A DNA stretch of 64,000 nt, taken from assembly GCA_024399495.1 (NCBI GenBank), contig JAKSNY010000008.1:39021-103020 (forward strand). Direction: 5' to 3'. The translations under genes were made by a program, and so were the position numbers. Positions within the stretch are counted from its first letter, which is position 1. Every line of letters starts with the position of its first letter. This document shows positions 6,147-64,000 of this stretch, piece after piece. The notes under the pieces were generated by a model. The model saw only the letters and a program-made list of their open reading frames with translations. It was not told the origin of the DNA and ran no database searches. This DNA is from Paludibacteraceae bacterium. GTDB lineage: Bacteria; Bacteroidota; Bacteroidia; Bacteroidales; Paludibacteraceae.

Positions 6147-6380
6147 AAATGCAGGCATTTTTTGAAAAAAAAGATATAAGGTGGGAGTTGGGAGCTTGCT
6201 CACAAAATTCCACCGCATATCTTTTTCAAAAACGGAACGTTTTTGTTTTTGCCGAGTGCAGGTTATCTTCACGAGTACCCGTAGGGTACGAGTAAAGATA
6301 CACTTATAGAGTAAGTGGTTTTTATCTTCACGACGACTGGAAGGAGGAGTAAAGGTACACTTATAGCGTAAGTAATGGAG
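6130..6380. repeat. Promoter-bearing CGAG hairpin repeat, copy 1
   Basis: On the plus strand CGAGAGCA (6130-6137) and TGCCGAGTG (6250-6258) enclose three hairpins, including AAAATGC/GCATTTT and CAAAAACG/CGTTTTTG. A second module, CACGAG-TACCC-GTA-GGGTA-CGAG (6270-6292), follows inside a TATCTT/AAGATA outer stem. Two further CACTTA/TAAGTG-type hairpins reach about 6380. An inverted, nearly complete copy lies at 9861-10048. This gap of 316 bp holds no gene. Confidence 0.85.
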
Positions 6381-17369: not shown

Positions 17370-17478
17370 GATGTGAGGATAACTTGCACTCGGCAAAAAC
17401 AAAATCGTTCCGTTTTTGAAAAAGATATGCGAAAAATGCTCGCATTTTTTGATTTTTGCTCTCGTTTGTGTATCTTTG
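17370..17478. repeat. Promoter-bearing CGAG hairpin repeat, copy 3 (short form)
   Basis: It starts at a degenerate GAGGATAACTTG, then CACTCGGCA, CAAAATCG/CGTTTTTG and AAAAATGC/GCATTTTT hairpins, then TGCTCTCG in a promoter (TTTG 17448-17451, 19 bases, TATCTTTG 17471-17478). The central GATAT hairpin of copies 1 and 2 is missing, showing that the hairpins are modular. The remaining sequence between 17213 and 17370 shows no gene. Confidence 0.85.
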
Positions 17479-19932: not shown

Positions 19933-19996
19933 GTAACCAAGTTTGCTTGGGTTATGCCGAGTGACGACGAAACATGGTTACGGCAAAGCCGTAACA
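19933..19996. repeat. CGAG hairpin repeat (module with 3' hairpin)
   Basis: CCAAG-TTTG-CTTGG is followed by TTATGCCGAGTGACGA, AACATG and a 3' hairpin GTTACGGC-AAA-GCCGTAAC. The 5' GTAGCGAG box is replaced by AAAGTAACC. Its stems differ from the copies at 39007 and 53707 by paired changes. Confidence 0.8.
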
Positions 19997-20388: not shown

Positions 20389-20423
20389 CAGTCCAAAATT
20401 AAAGTAATAACAAAATTTATGAC

Positions 20424-20563
20424 TGTTTGGAGTAGCGAGAGCAGAATCTGCGTAGCAGATTAAAGTTTTACGATGGGTGTTGATAGAATTTATTCTAATC
20501 AACACACAGAGAAAAACTTAGGAATCAGGTTTACCTGATTATGCCGAGTCACGAACAAACATG
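20424..20563. repeat. CGAG hairpin repeat within the rpmH leader
   Basis: TGTTTGGAGTAGCGAGAGCAGA precedes AATCTGC-GTA-GCAGATT. A middle hairpin GTGTTGAT...ATCAACAC follows, then AATCAGG-TTT-ACCTGATT and ATGCCGAGTCACGAACAAACATG. TGTTTG and CAAACA close the outside. This is the most complete multi-hairpin copy, and it lies wholly in the 5' leader of rpmH. Confidence 0.85.
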
Positions 20564-20587
20564 CATAAAAATTTAGAATAAATTTTT

Positions 20588-20749
20588 ATGAAACGTACAT
20601 TTCAACCATCAAACCGCAAAAGAGCCAACAAGCACGGCTTTAGAGAAAGAATGTCCACACCAAACGGACGTAGGGTATTAGCAGCACGTAGAGCAAAAGG
20701 CCGTAAGAAACTTACAGTTTCTGATGAGGCTTGCGTAAGACGTAGCTGA
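20588..20749 (+). CDS. rpmH: 50S ribosomal protein L34
   Basis: A 53-residue basic protein beginning [22 protein letters not shown], with [14 protein letters not shown], the invariant L34 signature. L34 binds 23S rRNA in the large subunit. It carries a slightly longer C-terminal tail ([11 protein letters not shown]) than the 44-46 residue standard form, which is common in Bacteroidota. It is followed by its own terminator. Confidence 0.97.
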
Positions 20750-38179: not shown

Positions 38180-38355
38180 TATTGGGGCATATCCCCATTT
38201 TCTGCTTCGCAGAACATGTTTGTCGTGACTCGGCATAGCTCGCAAGCGGCTCTGCCCTCGCTACTCCAAACAGTCCCCTACGCTTCGCGTCGGGCTATCG
38301 CCCTCTGTCGCCTTCGGCTCCTCATACATCATACATTATACATCATACATAATTA
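38180..38355. repeat. Repeat-filled gap: GGGGCATATCCCC unit, inverted CGAG hairpin repeat, TACATCA units
   Basis: On the minus strand TGTTTGGAGTAGCGAGGGCAGA precedes a GCCGCT...GCGAGC stem and TATGCCGAGTCACGACAAACATG, then TTCTGC-GAA-GCAGAA. Palindrome GGGGCATATCCCC lies at 38184-38196 and recurs at 41315 and 41421. TACATCATACAT units fill 38325-38352. No gene is seen between 38110 and 38355. Confidence 0.8.
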
Positions 38356-39006: not shown

Positions 39007-39176
39007 AAGGGACTGTTGCTAGGAACGAGAGCAGAACTCTTTGAGTAGCGAGAGCAGAGTGAACTTGTTCACTATGCCGAGTCACGAGAAAGAGTCACAG
39101 AAAGTAACCAAGTTCACTTGGGTTATGCCGAGTGACGAAGTAACATGGTTAAGGCGGAGCCTTAACAAAAGGGTCA
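39007..39176. repeat. Nested CGAG hairpin repeats
   Basis: TGTTGCT...AACGAGAGCAGA and ACTCTTT open an outer module. An inner GAGTAGCGAGAGCAGA-GTGAAC-TTG-TTCAC-TATGCCGAGTCAC lies inside, closed by AAAGAGT. A third CCAAG-TTCA-CTTGG-GTTATGCCGAGTGACGA follows with AGTAACATG and the 3' hairpin GTTAAGGC-GGA-GCCTTAAC. It fills the gap before tadA. Confidence 0.85.
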
Positions 39177-53706: not shown

Positions 53707-53822
53707 GTTAAAACAAGTTTTAACCATGTTACTTCGTCGCTCGGCATAGTTCAAGTAAACTTGCTTCTGCTCTCGCTCATAGTAACAGTCAACTTTCCAC
53801 TTTCAACTTTCCACTTTCCACT
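53707..53822. repeat. Inverted CGAG hairpin repeat followed by AACTTTCCA units
   Basis: Read on the minus strand: TGTTACTATGAGCGAGAGCAGA, AGCAAG-TTTA-CTTGAAC, TATGCCGAGCGACGA, AGTAACATG, then the 3' hairpin GTTAAAAC-TT-GTTTTAAC. TGTTACT pairs with AGTAACA. Four AACTTTCCA-type units (53790-53822) end 4 bp before recG. Confidence 0.82.
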
Positions 53823-55925: not shown

Positions 55926-56040
55926 GTCATTTTGAGTGAAGCCGAAAATGCACGAAGTGAATTTTCGTGCAAACGAGAGCAGAGAAAGTTTACTTTCTAT
56001 GCCGAGTGAAGCCGAAAATGCACGAAGTGAAAGATCTCAT
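55926..56040. repeat. CGAG hairpin repeat with GTCATTTTGAG/AGATCTCA ends
   Basis: CGTCATTTTGAGTGAAGCCG begins it and AAGATCTCA ends it. Inside are GCACGAA...TTTCGTGC and CGAGAGCAGA-GAAAG-TTTA-CTTTC-TATGCCGAGTG. The segment GAGTGAAGCCGAAAATGCAC occurs twice. 60938-61097 carries a near-identical stretch of about 110 bases, in both cases right before a lipoprotein promoter. Confidence 0.82.
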
Positions 56041-59084: not shown

Positions 59085-59328
59085 TGTAACTTTACTCGCA
59101 CCTTATAGGTGCTCGTTAAGATAAAAACTCCGTTTTCACTAACTTTACTCGTGGCTTCGCCACTCGTGAAGTTAACTGTCGCTCGGCAAAAAACAAAAAG
59201 CGTTCCGCTTTTTCTTTGAAAAACCATCTTTCCCTATTGAAAATCAAGCTTTCCAATAGGAAAATCTGTTTTTTTAGCAAAAAAATCCCAGATTTTTTTG
59301 GTTTTTTGCTCTCGCTTATGTATTTTTG
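59085..59328. repeat. Promoter-bearing CGAG hairpin repeat, copy 4
   Basis: Two ACTCG-stem-CTCG modules come first: GCACC-TTATA-GGTGC, then GTGGC-TTC-GCCAC. Then GCTCGGCA, hairpins AAAAGCG/CGCTTTT and TTGGAAAGC/GCTTTCCAA-type, TGCTCTCG, and TTTG (59297-59300)-20-TATTTTTG (59321-59328). No gene is seen between 59067 and 59455. Confidence 0.8.
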
Positions 59329-60937: not shown

Positions 60938-61097
60938 CATTTTGAGTGTGCTTGCTAGCGAGGGCAGAAGCCAAACTTGTTTGGATTATGCCGAGTGTAG
61001 CCGAAAATGCACGAAGTGAATTTTCGTGCAAACGAGAGCAGAGAAAGTTTACTTTCTATGCCGAGTGTAGCCGAAAATGCACGAAGTGAAAGATCTC
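60938..61097. repeat. CGAG hairpin repeats with AGATCTCA end (copy near FISUMP lipoprotein 3)
   Basis: GCGAGGGCAGA-AGCCAAAC-TTG-TTTGG-ATTATGCCGAGTG, then GCACGAA/TTTCGTGC and CGAGAGCAGA-GAAAG-TTTA-CTTTC-TATGCCGAGTG, then AAAGATCTCA. The right 110 bases are nearly identical to 55926-56040 and again end a few bases before a promoter. Confidence 0.82.
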
Positions 61098-61209: not shown

Positions 61210-62052
61210 ATGAAGACATTAAAGTTTATTTCAATTGCACTGGCTGGAGCGTTGCTGGTGCTAAGTGCGTGCAAGAAAGACAGTGGTAATGAGCCAAGTC
61301 CAACACCCGGACCAACCCCAACAGAACAGGTTACCGATGCCTGTGGCATCACCTATCCAGTAGTTAAGATAGGGGAGCAGTACTGGATGGCGGAGAATTA
61401 CCGTTGTTCAAAGTATGACACAGAGTCAGAGGCATACAACGCCTCATGGCTTACAGATAATACCATTCCAACATCAGCAATAATTTACACATACACCCCA
61501 TACTACACCGATGCCTCGGACAAGAGCAAGTGGGATAGTTATAGCAAACGGTATGGAGTGAATCTTACAGATGCACAAGTTGCAAAACTTGGTTACCTCT
61601 ACAACTGGGCCGCAGCTGTAGGTGTTGCGGACGGATGGGAACAGACATCAGCGTTCAGTGGCAATCGTCAGGGCATCTGCCCCAACGGTTGGCACGTACC
61701 GTCAAGAGCGGAGTGGCAGACGCTGTATGATTACATATACAGTGCACAAAAACTCACATCAAACGCAGTCGGCAAATATCTGAAGACCACCTCCGGCTGG
61801 TACGATGAGGGCAAACCACAAACCTACCCACAGGGCTTAGACACGTATGGTTTTGCGGCTCTGCCGGCAGGCTACGCATTTGGAAGTAGTGTGGACAATG
61901 TTGGCTACGATACCCATTTCTGGTCGGCTACTCCAAATGAGAGCTACAGCAGCTACGCTTACTACAGGACCCTCTATTACGACTATGACTACTTGAACGA
62001 GGGCGACGGCAGTAAGGGCCACGGACGATCTGTGCGTTGCTTAAGGAATTAA
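61210..62052 (+). CDS. FISUMP lipoprotein 3
   Basis: 280 residues. Lipobox LSAC (Cys about 20), a short Pro-rich linker (PSPTPGPTPTE), then a FISUMP domain from about residue 40: [56 protein letters not shown] and the end SVRCLRN. It resembles the FISUMP of 17504 (shared VTDACG and QYWMAEN motifs) more than those of 25715 or 57495. No peptide gene and no conserved leader hairpin precede it. Confidence 0.85.
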   Translation: MKTLKFISIALAGALLVLSACKKDSGNEPSPTPGPTPTEQVTDACGITYPVVKIGEQYWMAENYRCSKYDTESEAYNASWLTDNTIPTSAIIYTYTPYYTDASDKSKWDSYSKRYGVNLTDAQVAKLGYLYNWAAAVGVADGWEQTSAFSGNRQGICPNGWHVPSRAEWQTLYDYIYSAQKLTSNAVGKYLKTTSGWYDEGKPQTYPQGLDTYGFAALPAGYAFGSSVDNVGYDTHFWSATPNESYSSYAYYRTLYYDYDYLNEGDGSKGHGRSVRCLRN

Positions 62053-62245
62053 GGAGCAAGCCGAATGCAGACAAACTTGTTTGTATGCTGAGGCGAAGCC
62101 CTTAATCACAACGAAGTTGAAATTAATGGAGTAGCGAGAGGAGAACAAGTTTACTTGTTATCCCGAGTCACGACATTAATCACAACGAAGTTGTAATTAA
62201 TACTAAATCATCAGCCTTCGGGCTGAAAGCCAAAGTCTGATGATA
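62053..62245. repeat. CGAG hairpin repeat with GGA/TCC box variant
   Basis: GGAGTAGCGAGAGGAGA-ACAAG-TTTA-CTTGT-TATCCCGAGTCACGA (62129-62174): the usual GCA/TGC pairs of the boxes have become GGA/TCC. AATCACAACGAAGTTG-type and TCAG-CCTTCGGG-CTGA hairpins surround it. No gene in 62053-62397. Confidence 0.82.
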
Positions 62246-62895: not shown

Positions 62896-62962
62896 AGCAG
62901 CACTCGGCATAACCCAAGTAAACTTGGTTCTGCCTTCGTTGGCAAGCACATTCAGGATGACG
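62896..62962. repeat. Inverted CGAG hairpin repeat (short)
   Basis: On the minus strand: CGAAGGCAGA-ACCAAG-TTTA-CTTGGGT-TATGCCGAGTG. The first box has CGAA in place of CGAG. It is joined to a CAGGATGACG end. Confidence 0.75.
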
Positions 62963-63012: not shown

Positions 63013-63037
63013 GTTTTTGTCAAAATGTATATAAAGG

Positions 63038-63336
63038 GGTGTAACTTTACTCGTACACTGCGTGTGCTCGTGAAGATAAAAACTCCGTTTTCACTAACTT
63101 TACTCGTGGCTTCGCCACTCGTGAAGTTAAATCTCCTTACTCTGTAAGTGTAACTTTACTCGCACACTGCGTGTGCTCGTGAAGATAGGATGCATTATGG
63201 CAGAACCAAAAATGTTCCATTTTTGAAAAATATGTGTTGTATGGGTATGTAAACAAGTTTCCAACCCACACTCCACATATTTTTTGCAAAAAAACTGCAT
63301 TTTTTTTTGTTCTGCACATAATTTTCACTATCTTTG
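63038..63336. repeat. Promoter-bearing hairpin repeat, copy 5 (rpsO), diverged boxes
   Basis: Three ACTCG-stem-CTCG modules: TACAC-TGC-GTGTG, GTGGC-TTC-GCCAC and GCACAC-TGC-GTGTGC. Then GGCAGAAC...GTTCTGC replaces the CGGCA/TGCTCTCG boxes, so the closing helix is fully Watson-Crick. The inner hairpin AAAAATG-TTC-CATTTTT follows. It ends with TTTG (63306-63309), 19 bases, TATCTTTG (63329-63336). Confidence 0.82.
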
Positions 63337-63895: not shown

Positions 63896-64000
63896 TTACA
63901 ATGAAGAGTTTGATCCTGGCTCAGGATGAACGCTAGCGACAGGCCTAACACATGCAAGTCGAGGGGCAGCGGGGTGTAGCAATACACCGCCGGCGACCGG
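63896..64000 (+). rRNA. rrs: 16S rRNA, 5' end (truncated by window)
   Basis: GAAGAGTTTGATCCTGGCTC and CTAACACATGCAAGTCGAGG at the usual positions. GGGGCAGCGGGG with TACACCGCCGGCGACCGG suits Bacteroidales. The rest lies outside the window. Confidence 0.97.

Follow-up and report, generated by a model that had tools for sequence, protein, structure and literature searches.

Between an upstream open reading frame and a deaminase gene, the window (the whole 64,000-nucleotide [nt] stretch that we analyzed, C25:39021-103020 of the 2.08-Mb, 82.5% complete draft genome G000) contains a 157-bp insertion made up of two structured elements, one of which sits in the loop of the other. The deaminase assignment of the downstream gene comes from Pfam, and tadA-like is our own label. 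The preliminary description had entered this site, at 39007, as one copy of an intergenic hairpin repeat; there are in fact two, and our covariance model of the family (R1, described below) reports the inner one. The parts of the insertion are as follows.

39012..39168, plus strand: insertion of 157 bp between the upstream open reading frame and the deaminase gene (tadA-like); outer element with stem TGTTGCT/AGTAACA and a second element in its loop
39007..39011, no strand: left copy of the flanking direct repeat AAGGG, from the empty-site comparison
39169..39173, no strand: right copy of the flanking direct repeat AAGGG, from the empty-site comparison
39026..39035, plus strand: outer element, left kernel box CGAGAGCAGA, from the sequence
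39124..39132, plus strand: outer element, right kernel box TATGCCGAG, from the sequence
39148..39166, plus strand: 3' hairpin GTTAAGGC/GCCTTAAC, from the sequence

The relative G010 has the exact empty site, GATTGATAAGGGTCAAG; there the two flanks abut at 630-634, overlapping by the 5 bases AAGGG. On both strands, the 400 nt upstream of the deaminase gene are free of copies in all 13 relatives compared, and the spacer at this position is 15 nt or shorter in 11 of them; elsewhere in the deaminase loci examined, there is a copy in G004 and a weak partial match in G001. By this comparison, at least one copy of the family, that at the deaminase gene, is a recent insertion, and we read the copy-in-loop arrangement as a nested insertion.

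Element copies in the window and their kernel

The preliminary description had proposed a family of intergenic hairpin repeats sharing one shape, at nine sites in the window, and a covariance model as the way to check it. The family is confirmed: R1, which was trained on 24 copies, all from other genomes, recovers nine copies in the window at E values of 1.1e-4 or below, and two further matches (E values of 0.083 and 0.38) were taken as chance. Together with two sites of other kinds, the copies are the following.

38216..38273, minus strand: short element (R1) upstream of dapB, outer stem TGTTTG/CAAACA; the counterpart at dapB in G003 is the long form
39036..39095, plus strand: inner element at the deaminase locus (R1, E = 9.1e-10), outer stem CTCTTT/AAAGAG, GTAG present
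53726..53788, minus strand: element between ispD and recG (R1), outer stem TGTTACT/AGTAACA
55960..56020, plus strand: element within a CGTCATTTTGAG-type repeat (R1)
60958..60998, plus strand: element kernel (R1) in a context like that of 55960..56020 (CGTCATTTTGAG-type)
61019..61079, plus strand: element adjoining 60958..60998 (R1)
62051..62103, plus strand: diverged element (R1, E = 5.1e-5)
62122..62180, plus strand: element with compensated box GGAGA/TATCCC and outer stem ATTAATG/CATTAAT (R1, E = 0.00011)
62901..62939, minus strand: element kernel (R1)
20412..20592, plus strand: long form of about 180 nt whose end coincides with the rpmH ATG, with a multibranch interior and an AUG hairpin (from sequence and folding)
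19933..19995, plus strand: right half-copy with 3' hairpin; the counterpart of this spacer in G002 contains a full long form

Seven of the nine sites originally listed are matched by R1. Of the other two, 19933 is only a right half, and 20424 is a long form that has a 94-base interior and is missed by R1; the copies at 61019 and 62051 were absent from that list.

Each copy is built around a near-constant kernel, CGAG-N-GCAGA on one side and TATGCCGAG on the other, flanked by two stems whose letters are freely exchanged while their complementarity is kept; the invariance of the kernel is overstated because the patterns used to find copies fix most of it. Reading inward, the outer stem, about 7 bp long, is followed by a linker that belongs to one of several fixed classes, the CGAG box, a single free base, GCAGA, and an inner hairpin; the right side continues through TATGCCGAG, a linker, and the outer stem, with a 3' hairpin added in several types. 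RNA folding indicates that the free base is best taken as a one-base bulge, with GCA paired with TGC. The facing CGAG/CGAG boxes probably form tandem sheared G.A pairs, a geometry that we assume from established nucleic acid chemistry. Examples of the linker classes are GAGTAG/TCACGA, GATTAAG/CGTGA, GAAAAGT/ACGGA, TGCAAXX/X'X'GCAGC, and AGGAA/TGACGA. The GTAG that had been noted before the stem is present in some copies, but this foot is confined to the GAGTAG/TCACGA-type class; the other classes have AAG, AAGT, GGAA, or CAAA.

Genome-wide, the kernel pattern GCAGA-N6..36-ATGCCGAG has 50 matches, as opposed to 3 with a reversed control pattern. The sequence GTAGCGAG occurs seven times in the window against an expectation of 0.68, and four of the seven occurrences (20432, 38257, 39045, and 62131) are inside copies. 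At the gathering score, Rfam models matched only tRNA and 16S rRNA across the whole window, with the element unmatched, and the long form returned only subthreshold hits, none of them near the gathering score. A description of the kernel was not found in the literature, as judged mainly from titles and the beginnings of abstracts and with most subscription journals outside the coverage.

Other hairpin repeats are present in the same stretch. A different repeat (CTCGTACACTGCGTGTGCTCGTGAAG and kin) is arranged in tandem at 63030-63190, ahead of the 16S rRNA gene (start at 63898), and another dispersed hairpin family, ending in TTTTTGCCGAG, occurs at 6215-6256, 17389-17430, and 59182-59208; at 6215, the TTTTTGCCGAG-ended hairpin is followed by GTTATCTTCACGAG-like hairpins. 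At L023, L032, and L036, copies of the CGAG element are joined to a longer repeat (AACCAAAGKGGGAGGGACC).

Covariation of the replaceable stems

The flanks of individual copies are complementary far more often than flanks taken from different copies. Among 194 copies (39 from G000, 3 from its genus, and 152 from the wider set), 106 have a complementary run of 6 or more between their flanks, versus 5.5% of 3000 cross pairs, and this test is conservative because the cross pairs include pairs from the same family. The pair beside the CGAG boxes, which was not used in any selection, is of Watson-Crick type in 132 of 173 distinct copies (62 G-C, 28 C-G, 22 A-T, and 20 T-A), with a further 26 being G.T or T.G. 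Within the kernel, the one pair left free in the search pattern is C-G in 189 of 194 copies, and 4 of the remaining 5 are compensated. A one-class alignment of 24 copies (A2) yields a covariation score of 0.425, as opposed to 0.109 when shuffled and 0.035 to 0.123 when slid, and contains 8 pairs changed on both sides, compared to 5.5 in shuffles (8 was reached in 4 of 500); the number of pair types in this alignment is not above that of the shuffles, 72 of 500 reaching the observed value. Copies entered A2 only if they had 5 or more of the 7 outer pairs, so the outer-stem counts of this alignment are biased, and the tests free of such preselection are the arm-run comparison (194 copies) and the flanking-pair count (173 copies).

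The arm runs, the flanking pair, and the alignment score agree in upholding the earlier statement that structure is kept while sequence is not. Recent duplication followed by random stem changes, which the preliminary description had named as the contrary case, is not supported, because the two arms of one copy match far better than arms drawn from different copies. Its claim of compensatory changes at every stem applies to the two replaceable stems and to the pair flanking the CGAG boxes but not to the kernel, which is almost invariant.

Mismatches in the outer stem comprise 13 G.T and 2 A.C, hinting at a preferred strand for this stem only; wobble in the inner hairpin has no strand bias (8 G.T and 11 A.C). 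In the counts of arm runs, orientation, direct repeats, and promoter boxes, copies from the same locus or the same tandem array were each counted as separate copies. Six contigs with titles from other phyla were kept in these counts and in the flanking-pair and wobble counts: the matches on L090, L112, and L154 look like chance, and those on L144, L151, and L165 look like copies, which misbinning possibly explains.

Complementary arms can also arise without selection, at any sequence, through quasi-palindrome correction, in which a hairpin templates its own mutation, and the stem matches would then reflect neither selection nor recognition. The mismatched kernel (CGAG/CGAG, a G.A, and the bulged N) has stayed uncorrected across many genomes, although searches that fix most of the kernel would miss corrected copies, and we regard this origin of the stems as very improbable.

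Distribution, insertion, and the search for a mover

Copy numbers are uneven across the order. The strict pattern occurs in 24 of 295 sampled genomes, including G000 with 44 copies, and numbers range from 0 to 57; most pattern-bearing genomes have few copies, and three have 32, 32, and 57. Contig titles among the matches listed name Rikenellaceae, Prevotellaceae, Paludibacteraceae, Bacteroidaceae, Muribaculaceae, Dysgonomonas, and others. On the strength of these named contigs, which carry the repeat as well, we place the genome of the window in Bacteroidales. A looser pattern matched 57 of 61 genomes, at near chance level in most, and was used for G006 and G008 only. A scan of viral contigs returned 90 stretches, each of which may be a true copy or a chance match.

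Neighboring copies no more than 150 nt apart are head to tail in 23 of 23 pairs, 14 of which have a period of 75 to 84 nt. With respect to flanking genes, 39 of 130 intergenic copies are oriented with both, 36 against both, 36 are between divergent genes, and 19 are between convergent genes; the background of gaps in the same loci is 235 same-strand, 91 divergent, and 70 convergent. Because copies oriented with both genes (39) and against both (36) are nearly equal in number, the family has no fixed orientation. Open reading frames in the orientation, neighbor-pair, and promoter-box counts were called by a simple script, and the orientation count left out 24 copies located at the ends of loci and a further 40 within long open frames, many of these frames being probably spurious as genes.

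The Bacteroidetes promoter box TAnnTTTG, in reversed form (CAAANNTA), lies no more than 34 nt from the kernel on its 5' side in 48 of 149 copies from outside the genus, and 40 of these share one offset; random windows contain it in 61 of 4000 cases, and copies within the genus in only 2 of 60. In 40 of the 48 copies with this promoter-like box, the gene on the left points away from the copy. Copies also occur in frame inside genes, at L011, L012, and L072 in G000 and at L222 in another genome of the order, and motifs lead us to assume that these genes belong to the RHS family. Rickettsia palindromic elements, from a different host phylum, are likewise palindromes inserted in frame in coding genes.

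These placements bear on whether the element is a cis-acting structured RNA (a leader, terminator, or processing site) that was spread by ordinary duplication and not by transposition. Such a role is suggested by the excess of G.T over A.C in the outer stem and by 12 copies, treated below, that end at start codons and fold into a hairpin containing the AUG, but it is at odds with the unbiased orientation of the family as a whole, with the 40 left genes that read the other way, and with the in-frame copies in putative RHS genes, and we judge it improbable as an account of the family.

Direct repeats of at least 9 nt flank 49 of 154 single copies, versus 2.9% of 1500 cross pairs, and AAGGG stands at both ends of the one exact insertion, as would be expected of a miniature inverted-repeat transposable element (MITE) of a DDE transposon making short target duplications. 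The lengths of the flanking repeats vary, however, and many are within short tandem arrays or are equal to the outer arm or half of a neighboring copy, so that apart from the AAGGG repeat, the flanking repeats are confounded by arrays. No parent element came to light incidentally, and a MITE is in our estimation unlikely. At the ispD-recG spacer, copies are present in G000 and G012, with differing outer stems, and there are none in G001, G002, and G003. Only the deaminase locus provides a base-exact empty site; the two others, ispD-recG in G003 and L017 in G010, are gaps of greater length within spacers that have diverged.

Short tandem arrays of (AAAGTTG)n adjoin many copies (53776-53822 in the window; L035 and L080), and arrays of GTCAATC, TTCAATC, AATTCAA, and AAAGGAG adjoin copies in other genomes. 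These arrays might have been left behind by recurrent insertion and loss.

The copies are likely to represent a mobile, non-autonomous DNA repeat of Bacteroidales, recognized by its folded shape and moved by an enzyme acting in trans, and this reading accounts for most of the data. The kernel, comprising CGAG/CGAG, the one-base bulge, GCA/TGC, and a G.A, would be held between two replaceable parts, the inner hairpin and the outer stem, and would be recognized as a folded single strand, with the mobilizing enzyme supplied from elsewhere. Against this reading, our searches found no mobilizing enzyme, no transposition event was observed, there is a single base-exact empty site, and the flanking repeats, mixed with arrays and half-copies, do not establish a target duplication of fixed length. 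The unbiased wobble of the inner hairpin and the number of pair types in A2 also weigh against it. A purely DNA-based reading also leaves unexplained the copies at start codons, which look like the product of an RNA function.

The preliminary description, which saw in GTAG a reminder of REP elements moved by RAYT transposases, had suggested looking for a RAYT (Y1/HUH) gene elsewhere. As the present mechanism, this idea fares poorly. Y1_Tnp has no match in the 82.5% complete draft G000. A Y1 gene is carried by 35 of 61 relatives in all and by 2 of 16 genomes within the genus. In a chosen set of 27 genomes, they occur in 4 of 18 that bear the element and in 0 of 9 that do not. They are absent from the copy-rich genomes G064 (57 copies) and G271 (32 copies), both 99% complete, and from the drafts G006 and G008. 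An R1 scan of 18 Y1 loci, most with about 1.5 kb on each side, found a copy at one, which is among the 7 loci from element-bearing genomes. In that genome, G009 (L083:5115-6414), the Y1 gene is bracketed by inverted hairpins that belong to another GTAG-like repeat, and a CGAG copy abuts one of these hairpins, about 700 bp from Y1.

With Y1 missing from 14 of the 16 genus members and from 14 of the 18 chosen genomes that bear the element, and with GTAG restricted to one linker class, a RAYT was rejected as the current mover for most hosts among the 61 relatives and the 27 chosen genomes; the mover of the proposed mobile repeat is probably not a Y1/RAYT transposase. The Y1 genes of the 35 relatives are compatible with a past role.

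An alternative is that the family is a classical REP/REPIN, moved by a RAYT (Y1 HUH) transposase since lost or located in unassembled DNA. The imperfect palindrome with conserved mismatches, the GTAG foot of one class, the frequency of Y1 among relatives and its restriction, within the chosen set, to element-bearing genomes, and the proximity of a copy to Y1 in G009 all point in this direction. In addition, genes of the Bacteroidetes Y1 subclass 2.6 are reported to have atypical secondary structures on their flanks, of which further copies occur at other places in the genome (PMC6006769). Copy-rich genomes without Y1, and the presence of a copy at only one of 18 Y1 loci, where the gene lies between inverted repeats of another kind, argue against a classical REP/REPIN, which we hold to be quite unlikely.

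The family shares with REP elements an imperfect palindrome in many, mostly extragenic copies; it departs from them in that a GTAG (or GTGG) foot is present in one class only, most tested hosts have no cognate Y1/RAYT gene, all but one of the Y1 loci scanned have no element beside the gene, and neighboring copies do not form dimers in opposite orientation. It is REP-like in appearance and is not assigned to REP here. One source reports that GTAG REPs are hypothesized to be moved by RAYTs, that CGTC REPs are without a known mover, that both are known mainly from Proteobacteria, and that CGTC-tagged REPs in Bacteroidetes have no dedicated transposase and have stems of 8 to 9 bp and loops of 4 to 5 bases (PMC3733652). 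Like GTAG REPs, the elements are small, dispersed, intergenic, mismatched palindromes, with subfamilies that swap complementary stems within one genome and with occasional copies in genes. They differ in having GTAG in one class, one kernel across many genera, head-to-tail neighbors, most tested hosts without a RAYT, and a fixed middle between two replaceable stems. As in CGTC-tagged REPs, the contexts at 55926 and 60938 begin with CGTCATTTTGAG; the element differs in that its CGAG kernel is set within a repeat of this type. Palindromic candidate RNAs of Bacteroidetes (HMP2_4078 and others) resemble the element in being palindromic and in coming from the same phylum, a likeness by description only, and their description, in the available part of the source, mentions no kernel, mobility, or start-codon hairpin (PMC8040213).

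The family combines one non-Watson-Crick kernel with swappable stems and a spread over many Bacteroidales genera. With no RAYT found in most tested hosts, the question of what moves RAYT-less palindromes becomes testable.

Copies that end at start codons

A DNA query with the 20412-20590 form, the loci that it returned, and the loci found earlier yielded 12 related copies, in G000, G002, G003, and G010, whose ends coincide exactly with a start codon. The genes that follow are rpmH in three species; an oxidoreductase, a decarboxylase-like, and a PII gene in two species each; and a nucleotidyl-transferase gene, a STAS gene, and dapB in a single species each. Family names are from Pfam, and the decarboxylase-like gene had no Pfam match in the 60 residues tried; the labels korC, rfbA, and decarboxylase are our presumptive ones. 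Seven of the copies have long interiors, in three sequence versions, and five have a short hairpin. These 12 copies have a fixed position and orientation before genes, which the family as a whole does not.

The last hairpin of these copies, CATAAAWWTTTA-loop-TAAAWWTTTATG, holds the AUG in one arm and includes three compensated pairs. Its CATAA arm has an alternative partner in the TATG near the start of the element, at its 5' end, and in constrained ViennaRNA folds, the two mutually exclusive structures differ by -0.2 to 3.1 kcal/mol in 12 of 12 copies. The 5' TATG arm is invariant, so covariation is silent on the second fold, and the 12 copies are related and do not constitute independent cases. 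In 5 of the 12, TAnnTTTG is present 34 to 80 nt upstream, and on the basis of this sequence, at least these 5 are probably transcribed.

The copies at gene starts may be a subclass that has turned into leader elements, able either to conceal the start codon or to expose it. It is conceivable, though we hold the idea only tentatively, that the subclass constitutes a mobile translational switch, a transposable structured element installed exactly at the start codon. Pairing of CATAA with the element's own 5' TTATG would leave the start codon free, and pairing with the TTATG of the gene would hide it; the replaceable interior, either a short hairpin or a multibranch domain of about 80 nt, would, together with the G.A kernel, sense a protein or metabolite and tip the balance. 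If so, one regulatory RNA would have been copied before rpmH, dapB, ferredoxin-oxidoreductase, PII, and other genes, and its interiors would have been swapped among species. With some copies fused to start codons, it also becomes testable whether a regulon of structured leaders can originate from mobile repeats.

At the rpmH locus, the copy is absent from G001 and G002. Elsewhere in G000, two weaker matches of the long type are located at C16:8936 and C23:2799.
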